From a bacterium (GTDB taxonomy: Bacteria > Omnitrophota > Gorgyraeia > Zapsychrales > Zapsychraceae), in NCBI GenBank assembly GCA_030429765.1, contig JAUIER010000023.1, positions 1-49,629 on the forward strand: a stretch of 49,629 nt of DNA, read 5' to 3'. Each line of letters starts with the position of its first letter. The first letter of the stretch is position 1. Positions 1 to 10,049 of this stretch are shown here, one piece after another. Below the pieces are notes generated by a model, which had not been told where the DNA came from, made no database searches, and saw nothing but the letters and a program-made list of their open reading frames with translations. The translations under genes were made by a program, and so were the position numbers.

Positions 1-2907
1 GCGCATCTCGCCTCGTTTACCTTCTTGAGCCGTCGCGATTTGTCCCTGCGCAATTCGGGCCGCCTCTTCAGACGAAATCTTACCATCTGCATAGCCGGGA
101 TATTCCAAGTCCTCGCGTACCGTGGGGATATTGGCTTCCATGCCGCCAATCCAGTGCACCGTGAAGGCTTGAAATAATAATTCCTTCTGCTCCGGTGTCA
201 AACCGGCAACCCGCATACGCTGACGATCTTTGATTTTCAATAATTGATCCTGAACCTCCAGTAATCGGACTGGTATAACATCATCTGATGTTCCAGCATT
301 ACGGAAATAGCCTTTCTTGATCAACTCGTCGATTTGACTGTCAGATAAATTAGTGAAGACCTGTAATTCGTCTCGGGCGATAATTCGTCCGGGTAAGTTT
401 ACGGCCTTGAGTACATCCCCTTCATAGTTGGCCATGAACGGAAAGCCCATATGCATTTGGGTAAAGTTTGGCGCGATCCAGTCCTTCACACCATACATCT
501 GCTGAACCACATCTGCGATGTAATCCCATCGCCCGGTGTTGAAACCGGCGAAGTTTTCGCCCAACGCCGCGCGAATCCCTTCGATCTCATACACTTCCTG
601 GATCTGTTCGATCAACACGGTTGTCTTAACTGTACCGCGTCGAAGGCCTAGTTCATCTTCGACGGCATTGATCACCTTCTTCAGCCATGCCGCTTCGGCC
701 GCTGTCTGGAGTTTAGGTGAATAAAGCTTAATGCTTGATCCCTGTCGACCCAAAGTCTGATAGACATTGGTCACATAAAAAACAATATCAGCAATCGTGG
801 CTGACACACCTTCGAGCTGTCCTTGTGAATTCAAGAACTTAAATTCGCGGGATTTCAAATGCGGACCGCGGTGACGGAACATCCGTTTGGTATCGACCTC
901 AAGTAACGCCCGTCGCCAGTCAAAACTTTCATCGTAGTAACCTTTGGCCACCATCTTCTTGAACGAACTTTCAGCGGCTTGCCAGAACAAATCGTGATAC
1001 GGATTATCTTCATTGTCCAGCGCGTCAAATGCAATGGCAATGGCCTGGATGTTATCCAGCGACATCGTGAATTTTGAACCCAGCGCGTCTTCACCGTCGA
1101 ACATCATCGTTTTGGCACCGGATAACAATTGATAGGCAATTGTCCCGAAATCCTTCTTGAGATTACTGGCCAGAAAATCATCTAATTCAATGCCTTTGTT
1201 TGGATCGAATTGCGGTGTCGGTTTGATCGTCGCCGGTCCGGTTAATTCACTGCGGCGGTCCAAGTAGTCTTCTTCAACGGGAGACGTGCGGAAATTTCCC
1301 GACCAGGCATCCTTCCACTGAATATCCGTTCCCTGAATATAATCCTCCGGATCAGGATAGGATAATTTTTCTCCCGTTCGCGCCCGTTCCAACCGCGAGC
1401 GGTTTCGCTCCATCATCAATTCATTGAGCGACTCGGTTAAACCCGCGACCCGCTGCAAAATCTGTAATGATCGATCGTTAACGATATATCCATGGGTATC
1501 TCTGAGACTGACACTTCCGGCTTGTTTGGCCGCCGGATTGGCACCAATGTAGAGATCCACCGGCTTAGCCGATAATTGCGCGGCATCGGCGAGAACTTGC
1601 CGGGCAGCGCTTCCTCGTTGAGCCACCTCGATGTCACTGACCAAACTTTGCTGTACGATACCTTCGATAATAGTCTGATTGGCCCCATTGTTTTCATACA
1701 GATCAACATTCAGCATGGCCAAATCTGTATCTTCCGCGATGGACTTCGCGCCTTCAATAATTTCAGGTGAGGCGAATCGAATACTTCGCGCGTCATAGGT
1801 TTCCGCTAACACGGCCCGGTCGATTTGCTCAAATCCGGCCCCGCCCGAAAAATATTGACGCGGCATCACCTTTTGAGTGGCCGGATCGTACTCTTCCTTA
1901 ATATAGTTGTAAACTCCCAGCTTGAAGGCCTTGAGATACTGATCGTAAATTTTCTGCTTAATAGCCGGATCATCCACATCGACCCCGGCAATCTTGTTTT
2001 GATTGACGTACACCTGACCCAATAGTGTTTCTTTGAGATTATTCTTAAACCATGTCGCCAGAATCATCGAATGAAAGACCTGACGAAGATTAGCGAAGGT
2101 CTCACCTTCATTGACTTCCTTCTCAATTTCAGGAATCAGCACGTCACGGATGATATCTGATACCAACGCCCCCTTGGCCCTGTCTTCGGGACCGACTTGA
2201 CGTTCGCCATGGGCGGACCGGCCGATCGATTCCTGCAACGCCAGATAATCCTGGGCCAACATGACCTTCAATTTACTGTTCACAACAAACGCTCGGCCTT
2301 CATGTTCATAGACCGCGGCCCGTTCAGGGACAATCCAAATTTTGTTAAAAGTATCGACGGGAATATCTGTGGTCCCAAATCGCTCGTATGCTTTTTCATG
2401 GACGCGCTTCCAGAATTTCTTTCCGAGTTCATCTTCGGGATACATGAGAGAGGCGGTAAGCTGTTTGAGCACGTAATCTTGAGCCAGTAGATCACGTCCC
2501 ATTTCAGTCATACCGAATGAATCTGTAATGATCTGATCTTTTTCGTATGGAGAAAGGTTGACCCAAAGATCAGATGAAGGCGTCGTTAATGTCGCCAAAA
2601 AATACTTGATGAGCCGGTCCGATTCCGCGCGCAATTGTGCCTCGTCCGGAGAGGTGTCCCCTTTGTGGACAAAGAAGGTGAAATTCAGTGGATTCTCGGG
2701 ATTGACCTGAATCCCCTTGAGAATCGTAGGCATAAAAATAGGTGTCTGGGAAACCATGACACCTGGTGCGGGTAAGTTCAGTACCTTCGGTAAGACCTGG
2801 GCACTGACATTCGGTGGCAAAACCGATGTAAATATAAATGTAAATGCGATAAATCCTGAGATGATCCTTTGACAGATTGTTGGCTCTTTGCGCGTAAAAC
2901 GTTTCAT
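1..2907 (-). CDS. Exported malate synthase-fold protein (3' part outside window)
   Basis: The frame is open from the ATG at 2907 to the left edge, giving 969 residues with no stop; GGAGG lies about 10 bases before the start. Residues 1-38 form a signal peptide (basic start, FIAFTFIFTSVLPP, likely cleavage after VSA). Residues about 55-370 match a region I recall from many Omnitrophota hypothetical proteins (for example WVNLSPYEK, TEMGRDLLAQDY, KKFWKRV). From about residue 460 it follows the malate synthase A fold: LDRRSELTGP, then FDGEDALGS (about 600), RHRGPH (about 680), VLIEQI (about 763), GRWDY (about 795) and GGMEANIP (about 920). The conserved Arg, and the Glu and Asp that bind Mg in known malate synthases, are present. 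About 80 extra residues precede GGMEANIP. An exported malate synthase is odd; substrate and activity are unknown. It could itself be a giant gene, since its end is not seen. Confidence 0.8.
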   Translation of the reverse strand, partial: MKRFTRKEPTICQRIISGFIAFTFIFTSVLPPNVSAQVLPKVLNLPAPGVMVSQTPIFMPTILKGIQVNPENPLNFTFFVHKGDTSPDEAQLRAESDRLIKYFLATLTTPSSDLWVNLSPYEKDQIITDSFGMTEMGRDLLAQDYVLKQLTASLMYPEDELGKKFWKRVHEKAYERFGTTDIPVDTFNKIWIVPERAAVYEHEGRAFVVNSKLKVMLAQDYLALQESIGRSAHGERQVGPEDRAKGALVSDIIRDVLIPEIEKEVNEGETFANLRQVFHSMILATWFKNNLKETLLGQVYVNQNKIAGVDVDDPAIKQKIYDQYLKAFKLGVYNYIKEEYDPATQKVMPRQYFSGGAGFEQIDRAVLAETYDARSIRFASPEIIEGAKSIAEDTDLAMLNVDLYENNGANQTIIEGIVQQSLVSDIEVAQRGSAARQVLADAAQLSAKPVDLYIGANPAAKQAGSVSLRDTHGYIVNDRSLQILQRVAGLTESLNELMMERNRSRLERARTGEKLSYPDPEDYIQGTDIQWKDAWSGNFRTSPVEEDYLDRRSELTGPATIKPTPQFDPNKGIELDDFLASNLKKDFGTIAYQLLSGAKTMMFDGEDALGSKFTMSLDNIQAIAIAFDALDNEDNPYHDLFWQAAESSFKKMVAKGYYDESFDWRRALLEVDTKRMFRHRGPHLKSREFKFLNSQGQLEGVSATIADIVFYVTNVYQTLGRQGSSIKLYSPKLQTAAEAAWLKKVINAVEDELGLRRGTVKTTVLIEQIQEVYEIEGIRAALGENFAGFNTGRWDYIADVVQQMYGVKDWIAPNFTQMHMGFPFMANYEGDVLKAVNLPGRIIARDELQVFTNLSDSQIDELIKKGYFRNAGTSDDVIPVRLLEVQDQLLKIKDRQRMRVAGLTPEQKELLFQAFTVHWIGGMEANIPTVREDLEYPGYADGKISSEEAARIAQGQIATAQEGKRGEMR

Positions 2908-3435: not shown

Positions 3436-6400
3436 ATGCGCAAGAAAATAATATTTATCTTGTTGTGCCTCATAATGTTAGGTACGATTGCCTATTTTTA
3501 TATCAATCGGATCTTCCTGCCGCAGCATGTCAAACACGTCGTTGAACAACGCCTGGCCGAGGCCACCCATCGTACCGCCTTAATAGAGAAGATCCGCTTT
3601 ACCTTCACCAAAGGAATCACGCTGGAGAACGTCATGCTCCGGGATTCCAATGACAATCAGATTTTTTGTCAGATCGATCAAGTCCATCTCAATCCCCTTA
3701 TTGCCCCATTTCTGAAGAATCAGACCATCGTGATCCCGACCATCACCTTTCAGAAACCTGTAATCCGGGTCACCCAGTACACCGATGGATCATTCAATTT
3801 CTCGGATATCAAGAGTGCCAAGCCGTCCGACGCCTCAATGAACCAACGCATATTTGTCAGACGGGTGAAGATCAACGGCGGATCAGTCGACTTTCTGACC
3901 CACAAAACACATCAGGACTTTTCCGAACGTTTTCGAAACATCAACGCATCTCTGGCCCTGTCGCTGGACCGTCATATTGACTACCGTATTGAGGCTGAAA
4001 TCCCCGAACAACAATCGCGTATAGGCCTATCGGGCAAATATCAGCCGGGCGCCGACCACATGACCACACGGATTGAATTGTCACGGATCAATATCCTCAA
4101 ATACCTCCCGCATCTGTATTCATCGTCCCGATGGACAATGTCCTCGGGTCAACTGACCAACGCGGATGTAATCCTGACCGTCAATGGTGCATCGTATCAA
4201 ATCACCGGACAGGCCTTTGCTGAAAATACACGTCTCCATCTGACCAACGGACAGACGTTACAAAGCGATATGCGTATGCTCAACTCTACCGTTACCATCC
4301 GGGATGGCCGAACCGAAATCAACGGTGAACTTCGCATGCCCAACGCGCTGCTGGAAGTTTCAACAACCCAGACTATTCGTGGAGATCTACAGGCCCAGAT
4401 TGACGAGTCTCATTGGTCGAATAGTGAGTGGACCATCAAAGGTAATATGAATCTCAACAACGCCTCGACAGATATCTCCGGGCAGTCACTGGCCCGGGCC
4501 CATATCGCGTCGCATGATATGACACTTACCTCCACCGGCGACAAGTTTTTTGGTCATGCTAATTTGAATCTCCGGGACGCCCAAATCCAGCTGTCGGATA
4601 AACGGCACTTTTCCGGAAACCTGGCGACCAAGAACACTTCCCTCCAATATGAAAATAAAAACTGGCAGATTAAAAGCCAGATCGACTTTAAAAAGCATCA
4701 GCTCAAATGGGACAACTACACACTGGCCGCGGACAAGGCCCACACAACCGGATTCAGTTATCGCTCACTCGAGGACAAACTCGAGATCGGCCTGCCCCTT
4801 GAGCTCAATTCGGCCGTGGTCACCCGCGCACAGGGAGGAAAATTTCAGGGATCCCCTGATATCAATCTAAGGCTTTCCCGTCCAATGGAAACTGATTCTC
4901 CCTGGACGGTGAACGGTCAAGTTGTGTTGAGCAACGGCTTGATCATGGGGCTTCCCCAAATCCAAACCGCGAGCAATTTGAAAGGAACGATCGACGTTTC
5001 TAACGATCAGCTTTCCACGGACGAATTAACATTCAACACGGAAAACACCAACATCGGATTATCTGGAAATGTTTCTCTAAGGGCCGCTGCACCGTCAGAA
5101 ATTCGGCTGGAGACTGCCAGTATCGAAATAGAACGCATCCGTAAGTTTCTACCCAAGACGCTGAAACGATATCCCTTTCAACTCAACGGCCGTACTGGAC
5201 TCAGTCTGTTGTATACCGGAGATCTCAACGATCTTTCCGCCGGATCGATAACGGTAAACGCCAATCTTAAAGAAGTCGATTTAAATTCTGAAAAGTTTCC
5301 CCATCCCGTTACCAAGATCAACGGACATATCAATTACCGCTCCAACAAAGTCATCTGGAACCATTTGCGCGGACGGTATCGGGATACCCCCTTTGAACTC
5401 AATGGCGAACTCAATGATTTTTCCCGTCCACGTATCACCACCACCGCCAGCGGACAAAACTTTGATGTCGTCAGTGAGATTGAATTGTTTCACAACATCA
5501 TCCGTCTGCCGATTCTCGATGTGAAGTACAACAACAGCACCTTCAGCGGAGATGCCGATATTTATTTATATGAAAGTGTTCCTCCGGACTTTCAGATCAA
5601 GGGTAAATCCAATGTTACCCTGTCCGATGCAGTAACTCTCCTGCCCAAATGGCATGACCGCTTGTTCGCGATGAATCCACGGGGACAGTTAAACGGGGAT
5701 GTCTTCTTCAAGGGAAAAACCGACGACTGGCTCAACTGGAGCCTGTCATTTGAGGGAAGATCCGAATCCTTGACGATATATAACCACAATCTGTCGAATA
5801 TCAAATTAAAATATCTGCAGCGGGACGGCAACATCAGCAAATTCGATGTCACAGCTGAGACCTATGGGGGAAAGATGAACTTCGCCTCGAGCGCCAATCT
5901 TGAATCGCGGGACACGCCGTTTGAAGCTGACTTGGGCTTGTTCCGCATTAATCTCGCCGACGTCGTGGCCAAGCAGAATCTTAAAGCCAAAAATCTGTCG
6001 GGGGCCCTGACCTTCAATCTCGATATCGGCGGATATCTTAAAGATAAGTCGAGTTGGAACGGCGCCGGAAATTTTGAAATCCGCGACGGTTACATCTGGC
6101 GCCTGAAGATTCTTGAAGGTCTATCAAGCTTTCTGCTGATTCCGGAATTCAAAAATACCATTTACACCGAAGCCAGCGGACAATTCTCCATCGGTGAACA
6201 AAAGATCCGAAGCAACGATCTAATCCTGGAAAGTCAGACAATGAAATTGATCGGACAGGGCTGGATAGGTTTCGACAGGACGATCTACTTTGATGTCACA
6301 CCCAAACTGAGCGAGATCGCGATGATTGAGTCCGACTCCATGAAAAAATGGACATCGGCGTTTCTATCGTCCAATATTAAATTGGTGCGGGTCACCGGCA

Positions 6401-6513
6401 GTCTCGACACGCCGACCTATAAGGCCCATGCGGCCTCTCCCCTCAAAATTCTTAAGGGTACAACGGGTGTAATCAAAGAAGGGATCGGCGGAATCCTGGG
6501 TGAGTTGTTCTAA
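3436..6513 (+). CDS. AsmA-family large envelope protein
   Basis: The protein has 1,025 residues with an N-terminal membrane anchor (about residues 5-24) followed by a long, beta-strand-rich body with the alternating hydrophobic pattern of the AsmA/TamB/YhdP superfamily. The stretch beginning IEKIRFTFTKGITLENVML is typical of the AsmA N-terminus. The last 250 residues resemble the AsmA C-terminal domain (GNFEIRDGYIWRLKILEG, then FSIGEQKIRSNDLILES). Members are anchored in the inner membrane, span the periplasm and are linked to lipid transport to the outer membrane; that role is inferred here. A TATAAT ends 8 bases before the ATG and the Shine-Dalgarno is weak, so the mRNA may be nearly leaderless. 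The stop overlaps the convergent rdgB stop by 4 bases. Confidence 0.85.
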   Translation: MRKKIIFILLCLIMLGTIAYFYINRIFLPQHVKHVVEQRLAEATHRTALIEKIRFTFTKGITLENVMLRDSNDNQIFCQIDQVHLNPLIAPFLKNQTIVIPTITFQKPVIRVTQYTDGSFNFSDIKSAKPSDASMNQRIFVRRVKINGGSVDFLTHKTHQDFSERFRNINASLALSLDRHIDYRIEAEIPEQQSRIGLSGKYQPGADHMTTRIELSRINILKYLPHLYSSSRWTMSSGQLTNADVILTVNGASYQITGQAFAENTRLHLTNGQTLQSDMRMLNSTVTIRDGRTEINGELRMPNALLEVSTTQTIRGDLQAQIDESHWSNSEWTIKGNMNLNNASTDISGQSLARAHIASHDMTLTSTGDKFFGHANLNLRDAQIQLSDKRHFSGNLATKNTSLQYENKNWQIKSQIDFKKHQLKWDNYTLAADKAHTTGFSYRSLEDKLEIGLPLELNSAVVTRAQGGKFQGSPDINLRLSRPMETDSPWTVNGQVVLSNGLIMGLPQIQTASNLKGTIDVSNDQLSTDELTFNTENTNIGLSGNVSLRAAAPSEIRLETASIEIERIRKFLPKTLKRYPFQLNGRTGLSLLYTGDLNDLSAGSITVNANLKEVDLNSEKFPHPVTKINGHINYRSNKVIWNHLRGRYRDTPFELNGELNDFSRPRITTTASGQNFDVVSEIELFHNIIRLPILDVKYNNSTFSGDADIYLYESVPPDFQIKGKSNVTLSDAVTLLPKWHDRLFAMNPRGQLNGDVFFKGKTDDWLNWSLSFEGRSESLTIYNHNLSNIKLKYLQRDGNISKFDVTAETYGGKMNFASSANLESRDTPFEADLGLFRINLADVVAKQNLKAKNLSGALTFNLDIGGYLKDKSSWNGAGNFEIRDGYIWRLKILEGLSSFLLIPEFKNTIYTEASGQFSIGEQKIRSNDLILESQTMKLIGQGWIGFDRTIYFDVTPKLSEIAMIESDSMKKWTSAFLSSNIKLVRVTGSLDTPTYKAHAASPLKILKGTTGVIKEGIGGILGELF

Positions 6514-7837: not shown

Positions 7838-8233
7838 TTACGATTTATATTCCGCTTCGACCGTGGTCCCGATTCCCCCGCGCGGATTCATAATCACCTT
7901 GATCTTGACCCAATGCGGCTGACAGGCCGCCACAAAATCATCCATCAATTTATTCACCAAATGTTCATGAAAGATACCGACATCCCGATACTCGACGAGA
8001 TACAGCTTAAAAGACTTTAACTCCACACAGGATTTATGCGGACCGTACGAAATCAGAATCGTCGCGAAATCAGGCAGCCCCGTTTTGGGACAGATGCAGG
8101 TAAACTCCGGGATCTCCAAATCGACGGTATACGTCCGGTCACTGTACTTGTTTTCCCAGACCTCAATATCGGGTAATTTTAGATTTCTAATATTCTCCTG
8201 TAAATCTTCATATGAACTTTTTGGTGCTGACAT
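7838..8233 (-). CDS. queF: NADPH-dependent 7-cyano-7-deazaguanine reductase (short, QueF type I)
   Basis: QueF reduces the nitrile preQ0 to the aminomethyl compound preQ1, the last small-molecule step before insertion into tRNA. The 131-residue size and FTCICPKTGLPDFA, with the active-site Cys and Asp, fit the single-domain type. KSCVELKSFKLYL is the conserved substrate region and the protein ends in the usual NPRGGI stretch. I start at the ATG at 8233: GGAG stands 7 bases before it, whereas an in-frame TTG at 8239 nearly touches the GGAG. It sits with queE, queC and queD. Confidence 0.95.
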   Translation of the reverse strand: MSAPKSSYEDLQENIRNLKLPDIEVWENKYSDRTYTVDLEIPEFTCICPKTGLPDFATILISYGPHKSCVELKSFKLYLVEYRDVGIFHEHLVNKLMDDFVAACQPHWVKIKVIMNPRGGIGTTVEAEYKS

Positions 8234-8284
8234 ATTCAATCTCCATGGATTTGTATCGTTTTCATCGAGGACAAACTGAATCTT

Positions 8285-9001
8285 TTATCGGACCTTCATA
8301 ATCTTATGCATCTGCGGCAGAATCCGGACATTCCGCAAATGCTGAGATGCCGCTTCCTCCATCTCCTGGCAAAGGCCCATAACACCTTGCCCCAAATCGA
8401 ATGTGTTGGGTTGCAGGATAAACAGCGTATCGGGATCAACGGCCTGAACCATACGGACGGCTTCGTGAATGTCGGATATGTCTGTGTCCTTGGTGATCAC
8501 AGTCTTGATAAATATTTCCCGTTGATGCTCCCGGGCGACGGCCAGAAATTCTGCGTGCTCCGGCCAGTAGGGCCGACATTGAGTCGAGCTCGGTAATTTA
8601 ATGTCCATCGATATCACATCGACCACATCAATGACCTGACGGAGTTCGGCCGGACATATCCCATTGGTTTCCAGATGCACCGGAATCTTTTGGGACTGGA
8701 GTTTCTCGGCCAATGCCCGCAAAAACTCGGCCTGAAGCAGCGGCTCACCACCCGTCAAACTAACGGAATGACACCCCGGCCACAGGTCGATGATCCTCCC
8801 GTAAACTTCGTCGAGATCCATGGTCTGAAACCGCCGCGTCGTGTCTCCGATTGAATGCGGGGTATCACACCACACACAATGCATATTACACTCAAAAAAG
8901 CGCACAAAGACCTGTTTGACCCCGGCGTACTTTCCTTCACCCTGGATCGATTTAAAGAACTCAATCAGCCTGGCCTGTAATTTAGAATCCGTATCCGTCA
9001 T
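8285..9001 (-). CDS. queE: 7-carboxy-7-deazaguanine synthase (radical SAM)
   Basis: QueE rearranges 6-carboxy-tetrahydropterin to 7-carboxy-7-deazaguanine using a 4Fe-4S cluster and S-adenosylmethionine. The N-terminus has FKSIQGEGKYAG, followed by the cluster motif CNMHCVWC (Cx3Cx2C spacing), DTPHS, and SLTGGEPLLQ (the GGE motif that binds SAM). LETNG and SMDIKLPSS continue the family pattern. Length 238 residues. It lies 27 bases after queC and 51 bases before queF in the same operon. Confidence 0.95.
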   Translation of the reverse strand: MTDTDSKLQARLIEFFKSIQGEGKYAGVKQVFVRFFECNMHCVWCDTPHSIGDTTRRFQTMDLDEVYGRIIDLWPGCHSVSLTGGEPLLQAEFLRALAEKLQSQKIPVHLETNGICPAELRQVIDVVDVISMDIKLPSSTQCRPYWPEHAEFLAVAREHQREIFIKTVITKDTDISDIHEAVRMVQAVDPDTLFILQPNTFDLGQGVMGLCQEMEEAASQHLRNVRILPQMHKIMKVR

Positions 9002-9028
9002 AACTCGTCATCAAACCCTGAAAATGGA

Positions 9029-9694
9029 TCAACTCAACGCCGGATCTTCATATCCCGCGTCCTCAAATCCTTTGCTCCGTAACAAACAGCTGTCGCAATC
9101 CCCGCATGGTTTCTTAAGTCCCCGATAGCAGGACCATGTCATTTCATACGGCACACCCAATTTAAACCCGGCCTGGATAATCTGCGCCTTGGTTTTCTTA
9201 ATCAACGGCGCGTAGATCTTGATCGAATGACCTTCCACCCCCGCCTTCATTCCCTTGCGGGCCGCCGTCTGATAGGCCTTCATAAAATCCGGCCGGCAAT
9301 CCGGATAGCCGGAATAATCGATCGCGTTGGCGCCGATAAATACCGCCTCGGCCTTCACTGCTTCGGCATAGGACATCGCAAAACTCAAGAAGATGATATT
9401 GCGGGCGGGAACATAGGTCGATGGAATCTCATGCGGTTTAATTCGCTTTCTCGTCGGGATTTTCTGTTTTTTGTCCAGCAGTGAAGATCCCAGCCACGGC
9501 ATCCCAAAATGAACCACCTTGGCCTCGCACTTGGCCGCCCGCGCGATCCGCCGCGCGTGATCAATTTCACGACTATGACGCTGGCCATAATCAAAGATCA
9601 GTCCATACGGTTTAAAGCCTTGGTCTTTGGCCATATACAAAATCGTGGCCGAATCCAGGCCGCCGGATAACAGTACTATCGCCTTCTTACTCAT
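9029..9694 (-). CDS. queC: 7-cyano-7-deazaguanine synthase
   Basis: QueC converts the carboxyl group of 7-carboxy-7-deazaguanine to the nitrile of preQ0 with ATP and ammonia. The PP-loop motif LLSGGLDSAT is at residues 8-17. The C-terminal Cys cluster (TWSCYRG, then KPCGDCDSCLLR) binds zinc. The 221-residue length is normal. The start overlaps the end of queD by 8 bases, so the two are probably translationally coupled. Confidence 0.96.
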   Translation of the reverse strand: MSKKAIVLLSGGLDSATILYMAKDQGFKPYGLIFDYGQRHSREIDHARRIARAAKCEAKVVHFGMPWLGSSLLDKKQKIPTRKRIKPHEIPSTYVPARNIIFLSFAMSYAEAVKAEAVFIGANAIDYSGYPDCRPDFMKAYQTAARKGMKAGVEGHSIKIYAPLIKKTKAQIIQAGFKLGVPYEMTWSCYRGLKKPCGDCDSCLLRSKGFEDAGYEDPALS

Positions 9695-10049
9695 AATAAA
9701 TCGCGCTCGCCATTTCTGATTCCCACACTTGAACCTTGTACAGGGTCAGCGGTTTGACCTCAGGGCCATAGTGATCATAAATAAACTTGGCAATATTTTC
9801 GGCCGTGGGATTTACAGACTTGAAATACGTCAGATCATTGAGGCATTTATGATCGATCACTTCCAGAAACCCCTTAAACTGTTTTTTTAACAGCGCGAAA
9901 TCCTCCAGCATGCCCAGTTCATTCAGAGACTCTCCTCGCAGAAAAACTTCTATTTTCCAGGTATGTCCATGCATGTCTTTGCATTTGCCGGGATATCCGC
10001 GTAAAAAATGTGCCGAGGCAATATCGCCCTTGAGTGTTAATTCAAACAT
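9687..10049 (-). CDS. queD: 6-carboxy-5,6,7,8-tetrahydropterin synthase
   Basis: This 120-residue T-fold enzyme converts 7,8-dihydroneopterin triphosphate to 6-carboxy-tetrahydropterin, the first committed step of the 7-deazaguanine pathway. Zinc ligands appear as ASAHFLRGY and MHGHTW; the catalytic Cys is in PGKCKDMHGH. The conserved Glu lies near the C-terminus (VQVWES). It heads the que gene set; GTP cyclohydrolase I, which would supply the substrate, is not in the window. Confidence 0.95.
   Translation of the reverse strand: MFELTLKGDIASAHFLRGYPGKCKDMHGHTWKIEVFLRGESLNELGMLEDFALLKKQFKGFLEVIDHKCLNDLTYFKSVNPTAENIAKFIYDHYGPEVKPLTLYKVQVWESEMASAIYYE

Follow-up and report, generated by a model that had tools for sequence, protein, structure and literature searches.

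Malate synthase within a giant, predicted exported polyenzyme of Omnitrophota

The malate synthase gene and its continuation

The window is the whole stretch analysed, the 49,629 nt of contig JAUIER010000023.1 (C32; forward strand, 1–49,629) of assembly GCA_030429765.1, the source genome, referred to as G000; other G-numbers denote genomes and L-numbers loci. At its left end is a leftwards-reading open frame (2907..1, minus strand) of 969 aa that is open at the window edge and runs off the contig. Its features, from the N-terminus onwards, are:

2800..2907 (-): signal peptide, aa 1–36 (NVSA|Q), recognised by a hydrophobic segment and an A-x-A-like site
1840..2799 (-): N-module, aa 37–356, ending PRQYFSGG; conserved across the family, with no Pfam family
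883..1497 (-): N-terminal part of malate synthase A, aa 471–675, with LTGPAT and FDGEDAL (weak colinear phmmer piece plus alignment)
403..882 (-): malate synthase TIM barrel, aa 676–835, with presumed catalytic Arg (FRHRG), Glu (LIEQ) and Asp (GRWDYI) (Pfam, phmmer and alignment)
154..390 (-): insert of ~75–80 residues, aa 840–918, absent from the homologue in G022 and from standalone malate synthases
1..153 (-): barrel continuation, WIGGMEANIP up to the end of the contig; the gene is taken up again at base 2 of contig C12 of G000 (L076:2-9901, +)

A first-pass annotation of this DNA had described a signal peptide and an Omnitrophota-associated region followed by the core of malate synthase, and all three parts are borne out. 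The signal peptide has a basic start, a hydrophobic segment from aa 11 (KD 1.62) and an NVSA|Q site at aa 33–37, of which the A and Q are nearly invariant (≥90%) in the family alignment. The region that follows matches 52 of 55 genomes in a search of relatives, and the N-module profile matches 89 of 285 sampled Omnitrophota genomes, often in multiple copies. The core matches Pfam MS_TIM-barrel (PF01274) at aa 676–835 (E 4.8e-31; 108.1 bits against a cut-off of 26.4) and its closest solved structure is E. coli malate synthase A (3cuz, E 9.5e-23). Against the NCBIfam equivalog TIGR01344 the window fragment scores 104.3 bits and the C12 part 27.1, with the cut-off at 594.5. The insert noted earlier as ~80 residues before GGMEANIP is real: 82 residues lie between the flanking motifs, where the closest homologue (G022) has 11 and one standalone enzyme 6, and it is thus particular to the G000 protein among those compared.

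The missing 3′ end, which the annotation had wanted recovered, is located at the start of contig C12. A same-genome domain search places the malate synthase C-terminal domain at a single position in G000, in the first bases of this contig, which opens in frame and continues for 3,299 residues to a stop codon. The C-terminal domain match (PF20659, C12:188-487) scores 28.2 bits against a cut-off of 23.1, a result that depends on the inferred contig join. The active-site Arg, Glu and Asp named by the annotation are present in the window frame and the C-terminal Asp it sought is on C12; in an alignment with seven standalone enzymes all four residues, which we take to be the catalytic ones, are present in G000. 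A structural model of the malate synthase in G022, the closest complete homologue (mean pLDDT 71.8), adopts the fold of malate synthase A, superposing on 3cux over 457 residues (Z 32.3, rmsd 4.9), which answers the fold question raised at the same time.

No overlap between the ends of C32 and C12 was reported, and the join is inferred because both pieces are colinear with the G022 homologue, a single uninterrupted frame of 2,140 residues. The joined G000 protein would contain ~4,270 residues (969 + 3,299) encoded in ~12.8 kb, in the order signal peptide, N-module and malate synthase A, followed by the further cargo enzymes and a C-module encoded on C12. That the two contigs are unrelated, or that such giants are chimeras made by mis-assembly, is scarcely credible in spite of the contig gap that splits the window protein, given that the two pieces align with G022, that malate synthase and isocitrate lyase lie on single uninterrupted frames in G022, G008 and G098, and that paralogues occur across many independent genomes.

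Several other genes of the window were noted. A second giant open frame (26483-49627, -; 7,714 residues) runs off the window and includes a 7,690-residue ORF that has no cysteine and contains recurring stretches of the form AKELxLTRGVPEL...AWRxFYDxKV. Proteins that by eye resemble AsmA-like envelope proteins adjoin the giant genes on both contigs (window 3436-6513, +; L076:10194-11105, +). A row of queF-, queE-, queC- and queD-like genes of the queuosine pathway, likewise assigned by eye, lies at 7838-10049 (-).

Cargo enzymes and the module family

The part of the G000 giant encoded on C12 contains, after malate synthase, two class I fructose-bisphosphate aldolases, two TIM-like regions, isocitrate lyase and the C-module. 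The malate synthase core claimed by the first-pass annotation therefore stands, and the implied lone enzyme gives way to a polyenzyme, since all of these share one chain. The isocitrate lyase matches PF00463 and has both the KKCGH and SPSFNW motifs; its score against NCBIfam TIGR01346 (274.9 bits) falls one bit below the equivalog cut-off of 275.9. For class I aldolase (NF033379) the score is 455.7 bits against a cut-off of 250, this being a whole-protein score over two matched stretches, and both aldolases align with the aldolase active-site motifs, whose roles we assume from general knowledge. Neither TIM-like region is a complete barrel: the first keeps the His and Glu motifs and has no recognised N-terminal third, and the second is degenerate and has lost both motifs, so at least one cargo domain is probably dead. 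The idea that the first TIM-like region is circularly permuted was considered and rejected, in that the downstream stretch scored 24 against the N-terminus of a standalone TIM, a score equalled in 344 of 500 shuffles. No other copy of malate synthase, isocitrate lyase or class I aldolase was found in G000, and TIM has a separate, ordinary standalone copy (a 258-residue frame with 5 Cys). A 411-residue phosphoglycerate kinase (PGK) frame adjoins this standalone TIM.

The G000 giant belongs to the family by having an N-module at its start and a C-module (GGIDLN...GFxPVI...) at its end; the C-module also terminates paralogues and is present in 36 of 39 complete N-module frames. The end of the C-module (e.g. 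L076:9593-9799) is a hydrophobic stretch, GFxPVIINxxPxxNxPxLLGL, that appears membrane-like in a hydropathy scan. A structural model of a short member, L149 (mean pLDDT 67.3), gave no PDB match for the N-module fold by Foldseek (best E 0.2), and VIA-align 2 gave a maximum Z of 4.2 (rmsd 4.4, 87 residues), mostly to cargo. In the same model the C-module segment (~601–625) has a pLDDT of ~80–93 between low-confidence stretches, which suggests that it may pack on the N-module.

A Pfam scan of 31 complete members (all 38 except L018, L042, L061, L065, L066, L068 and L071) gave a domain over cut-off in 19, leaving 12 with none. Soluble metabolic enzymes are present in about ten of the 31. The locus L041:7998-16970 of Candidatus Zapsychrus exili encodes 2,991 residues with two GAPDH domains, PGK, enolase and a weaker class II aldolase match; other cargoes include PEP synthase (L078), nicotinamidase-like domains with NAPRTase (L043) and an epimerase with URO-D (L038). 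The Ca. Zapsychrus exili genome also has a second, separate PGK, and the L041 polypeptide is apparently exported. Other members carry LysM, TPR, response-regulator, HATPase or GH26 domains and, together with the 12 members in which Pfam found no domain, indicate that metabolic enzymes are not the sole use of the frame.

The pairing of malate synthase with isocitrate lyase recurs with differing order. Both enzymes occur in the G022 and G008 giants, and two distant giants that have no N-module combine malate synthase with PEPCK: that of G098 has isocitrate lyase, malate synthase, GTP-PEPCK and an amino-acid dehydrogenase, and that of G194, read without its N-terminus, has PEP synthase, PEPCK and malate synthase. 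In G089 an isocitrate lyase giant (L157:282-5492) and a malate synthase–aldolase giant (L108:3971-10015) are encoded by neighbouring genes. Neither an N-module nor an N-terminal helix over the hydropathy threshold was found in G098 or G089, and export of these giants is accordingly less well supported. The nearest relative, G001, retains the modules and isocitrate lyase, with no malate synthase similarity detected. A frame in G256 was dropped as a malate synthase giant, its match (E 3.1e-4) being below cut-off and the frame containing 12 Cys.

Cysteine depletion and active-site retention

A hydrophobic N-terminus over threshold and an A-x-A|Q/E-like site are each present in 35 of the 38 complete members, and the cargo of these 38 contains only 47 cysteines among 63,489 residues (0.074%). 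The G000 giant has 2 Cys in the 4,232 residues after its leader. Among window genes classified by eye, eleven of cytosol type have 64 Cys in 3,364 residues and four of envelope type have 6 in 2,419, leaving out a CPBP-like gene (2/473), one TPR gene (6/543) and the second giant (0/7,690); the G000 giant differs sharply from the cytosol-type set (Fisher p ~1e-20). All seven standalone malate synthases of the phylum contain 3–5 Cys each, and all seven standalone isocitrate lyases 2–3. Counting against the reading of these proteins as exported polyenzymes, 22 of the 38 members have a membrane-like hydrophobic segment in the cargo or C-module.

These data bear on an alternative in which the N-terminal helix stays uncleaved as an anchor, or goes unused, and the enzymes form a membrane-tethered metabolon in the cytosol. 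Such an arrangement would have its substrates at hand, and would account for the detection of isocitrate lyase, malate synthase and class I aldolase nowhere in G000 except in the giant and for the cytosol-type response-regulator and HATPase cargo of paralogues. It is nonetheless improbable, in that cysteine is nearly absent, unlike in the cytosol-type genes of the same window, the basic residues before the helix favour a cargo lying outside, and the A-x-A|Q/E-like site is so widespread. The near-total loss of cysteines likewise disfavours the incomplete export that the first-pass annotation had allowed for.

The few cysteines that persist include those with presumed catalytic roles (in KKCGH, SCTTN and the nicotinamidase and PEP synthase sites), which are kept in 13 of 13 cases: seven isocitrate lyases (G000, G001, G008, G022, G082, G089 and G098, all with KKCGH), two GAPDHs (SCTTN, 2/2), two nicotinamidase-type domains (2/2) and two PEP synthases (2/2). 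In G022, G008 and G098 the KKCGH cysteine is the sole one beyond the leader region, and in G000, G001 and G089 the motif reads CKKCGH. Not all the cysteines that remain are in such sites, there being also a third in L041, CxxC-like neighbours in L043 and L078, and a few in members such as L062, L048 and L070. GTP-PEPCK has lost its active-site (P-loop) Cys in G098 (SASGKTN), and this Cys cannot be present in G194, where the single Cys sits in the PEP synthase motif; it is not known to be essential to PEPCK, and with both cases counted retention is 13 of 15.

In each of the four giants aligned (G000, G022, G008 and G098) malate synthase retains its Arg, Glu and Asp. The C-terminal Asp is present in G000, G022 and G008 by alignment and in G098 and G194 by eye. 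Of the 262 malate synthase columns identical in the seven standalone enzymes, the giants retain 33–44% (per columns covered). A fold used only for binding, which the first-pass annotation had offered as one possibility, is disfavoured, since the catalytic residues persist while 56–67% of the invariant columns have changed. In isocitrate lyase SPSFNW is present in five of six aligned giants, and 42–46% of 236 columns, defined and counted in the same way, are kept.

A broader form of the binding idea is that the enzyme folds are inert or adhesive modules, captured housekeeping domains that display surfaces to other cells as surface-moonlighting glycolytic enzymes do. Malate synthase, GAPDH, enolase, PGK, aldolase and TIM are known to moonlight at cell surfaces, and one TIM copy of the G000 giant is degenerate. 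Giant ORFs of the phylum have also been proposed as adhesins in the available text of PMC10066038. We nevertheless regard this explanation as unlikely, on account of the catalytic cysteines retained against a 0.074% background, the conserved malate synthase active site and the recurrence of the malate synthase–isocitrate lyase pairing in different order. Moreover NAPRTase, PEP synthase, PEPCK and nicotinamidase are, to our knowledge, not usual adhesins.

Proposed role and known systems

Exported and catalytically maintained polyenzymes, with both export and activity predicted from sequence, fit these observations better than decayed scaffolds, and we hold this reading to be probable, with room for doubt. 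If domains were captured at random and then decayed, one would expect neither the loss of nearly all cysteines with the catalytic ones spared nor the repeated joining of same-pathway enzymes in different orders. The loss of cysteines with retention of catalytic ones also provides a simple and general test of whether an exported enzyme domain remains in use.

In the scheme we propose, the gene would give rise to a Sec-exported polyenzyme of ~4,270 residues, in which the N- and C-modules would form one folded cap, the cargo apparently being inserted between ...PRKYFSGG and GGIDLN...; this cap may shield the cargo, or anchor it, beyond the inner membrane. There malate synthase and isocitrate lyase would be active and convert isocitrate and acetyl-CoA to malate and succinate, and active aldolase domains would condense triose phosphates to fructose bisphosphate. 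The cell would in this way keep a second, extracytoplasmic glyoxylate-shunt and gluconeogenic set, and paralogues would carry other metabolic sets. Neither CoA esters nor sugar phosphates would be expected in the extracellular space, and the objection in the first-pass annotation that acetyl-CoA would be lacking there stands; the likeliest source of CoA and phosphorylated substrates would be leaked, scavenged or prey-derived cytosol.

We are moderately confident of catalysis outside the cytosol and only weakly confident of a prey or host target. A bolder and frankly speculative proposal is that Omnitrophota have, beyond their own cytoplasm, a second central metabolism in which many capped, cysteine-purged polyenzymes would convert the CoA esters, sugar phosphates and NAD precursors of released or invaded prey or host cytosol to compounds importable by the small predator, or would act inside a host cell. 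A use of prey or host cytosol is suggested by the dependence on hosts indicated by traits of some classes of the phylum and by their ATP/ADP translocase, as described in the available text of PMC10066038, and by the intron RNA of the predator Velamenicoccus found inside dead archaeal cells, according to that of PMC13153191. The giants of Omnitrophota are hard to interpret for want of annotated domains; the metabolic subset has assayable reactions, and its compartment and function are therefore directly testable.

The literature searched (bioRxiv and most subscription journals being outside its scope) contained no exported central-carbon polyenzyme and no paper linking Omnitrophota with malate synthase or moonlighting, and only apparently unrelated papers for Omnitrophica and isocitrate lyase. 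Giant or large proteins are mentioned with no such enzymes in the available text of PMC10066038, PMC12057145, PMC11573180 and PMC8542988.

The G000 giant shares with malate synthase A (AceB; PF01274 plus PF20659) the fold, the domain order and the catalytic Arg, Glu, Asp and Asp, and differs in that its copy is Cys-free, predicted to be exported and embedded in a giant chain, with the ~75–80-residue insert in the window copy. Nematodes and Euglena have a bifunctional isocitrate lyase–malate synthase, in which both glyoxylate-shunt enzymes are likewise on one polypeptide; the giants differ from it in their predicted export, their variable order, their N- and C-modules and the addition of aldolases, TIM-like regions or PEPCK. 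We know of no exported polyenzyme with successive steps of central carbon metabolism, and we regard the giants as a new kind of system. The extracellular gluconeogenic enzymes of yeast differ from the G000 giant in being separate proteins that are not known to have signal peptides or to form giant fusions. They are similarly enzymes of central metabolism outside the cytosol, located in the extracellular fraction or periplasm according to the available text of PMC3927832. Closest in origin are the Omnitrophota giant ORFs of more than 20 kb, which in the available text of PMC10066038 have few annotated domains (adhesins, discoidin, dockerin); they share with the G000 giant the phylum, the very long exported-type protein and an expected extracellular role, whereas the G000 gene, at ~12.8 kb, is shorter than 20 kb and carries conserved metabolic enzymes.
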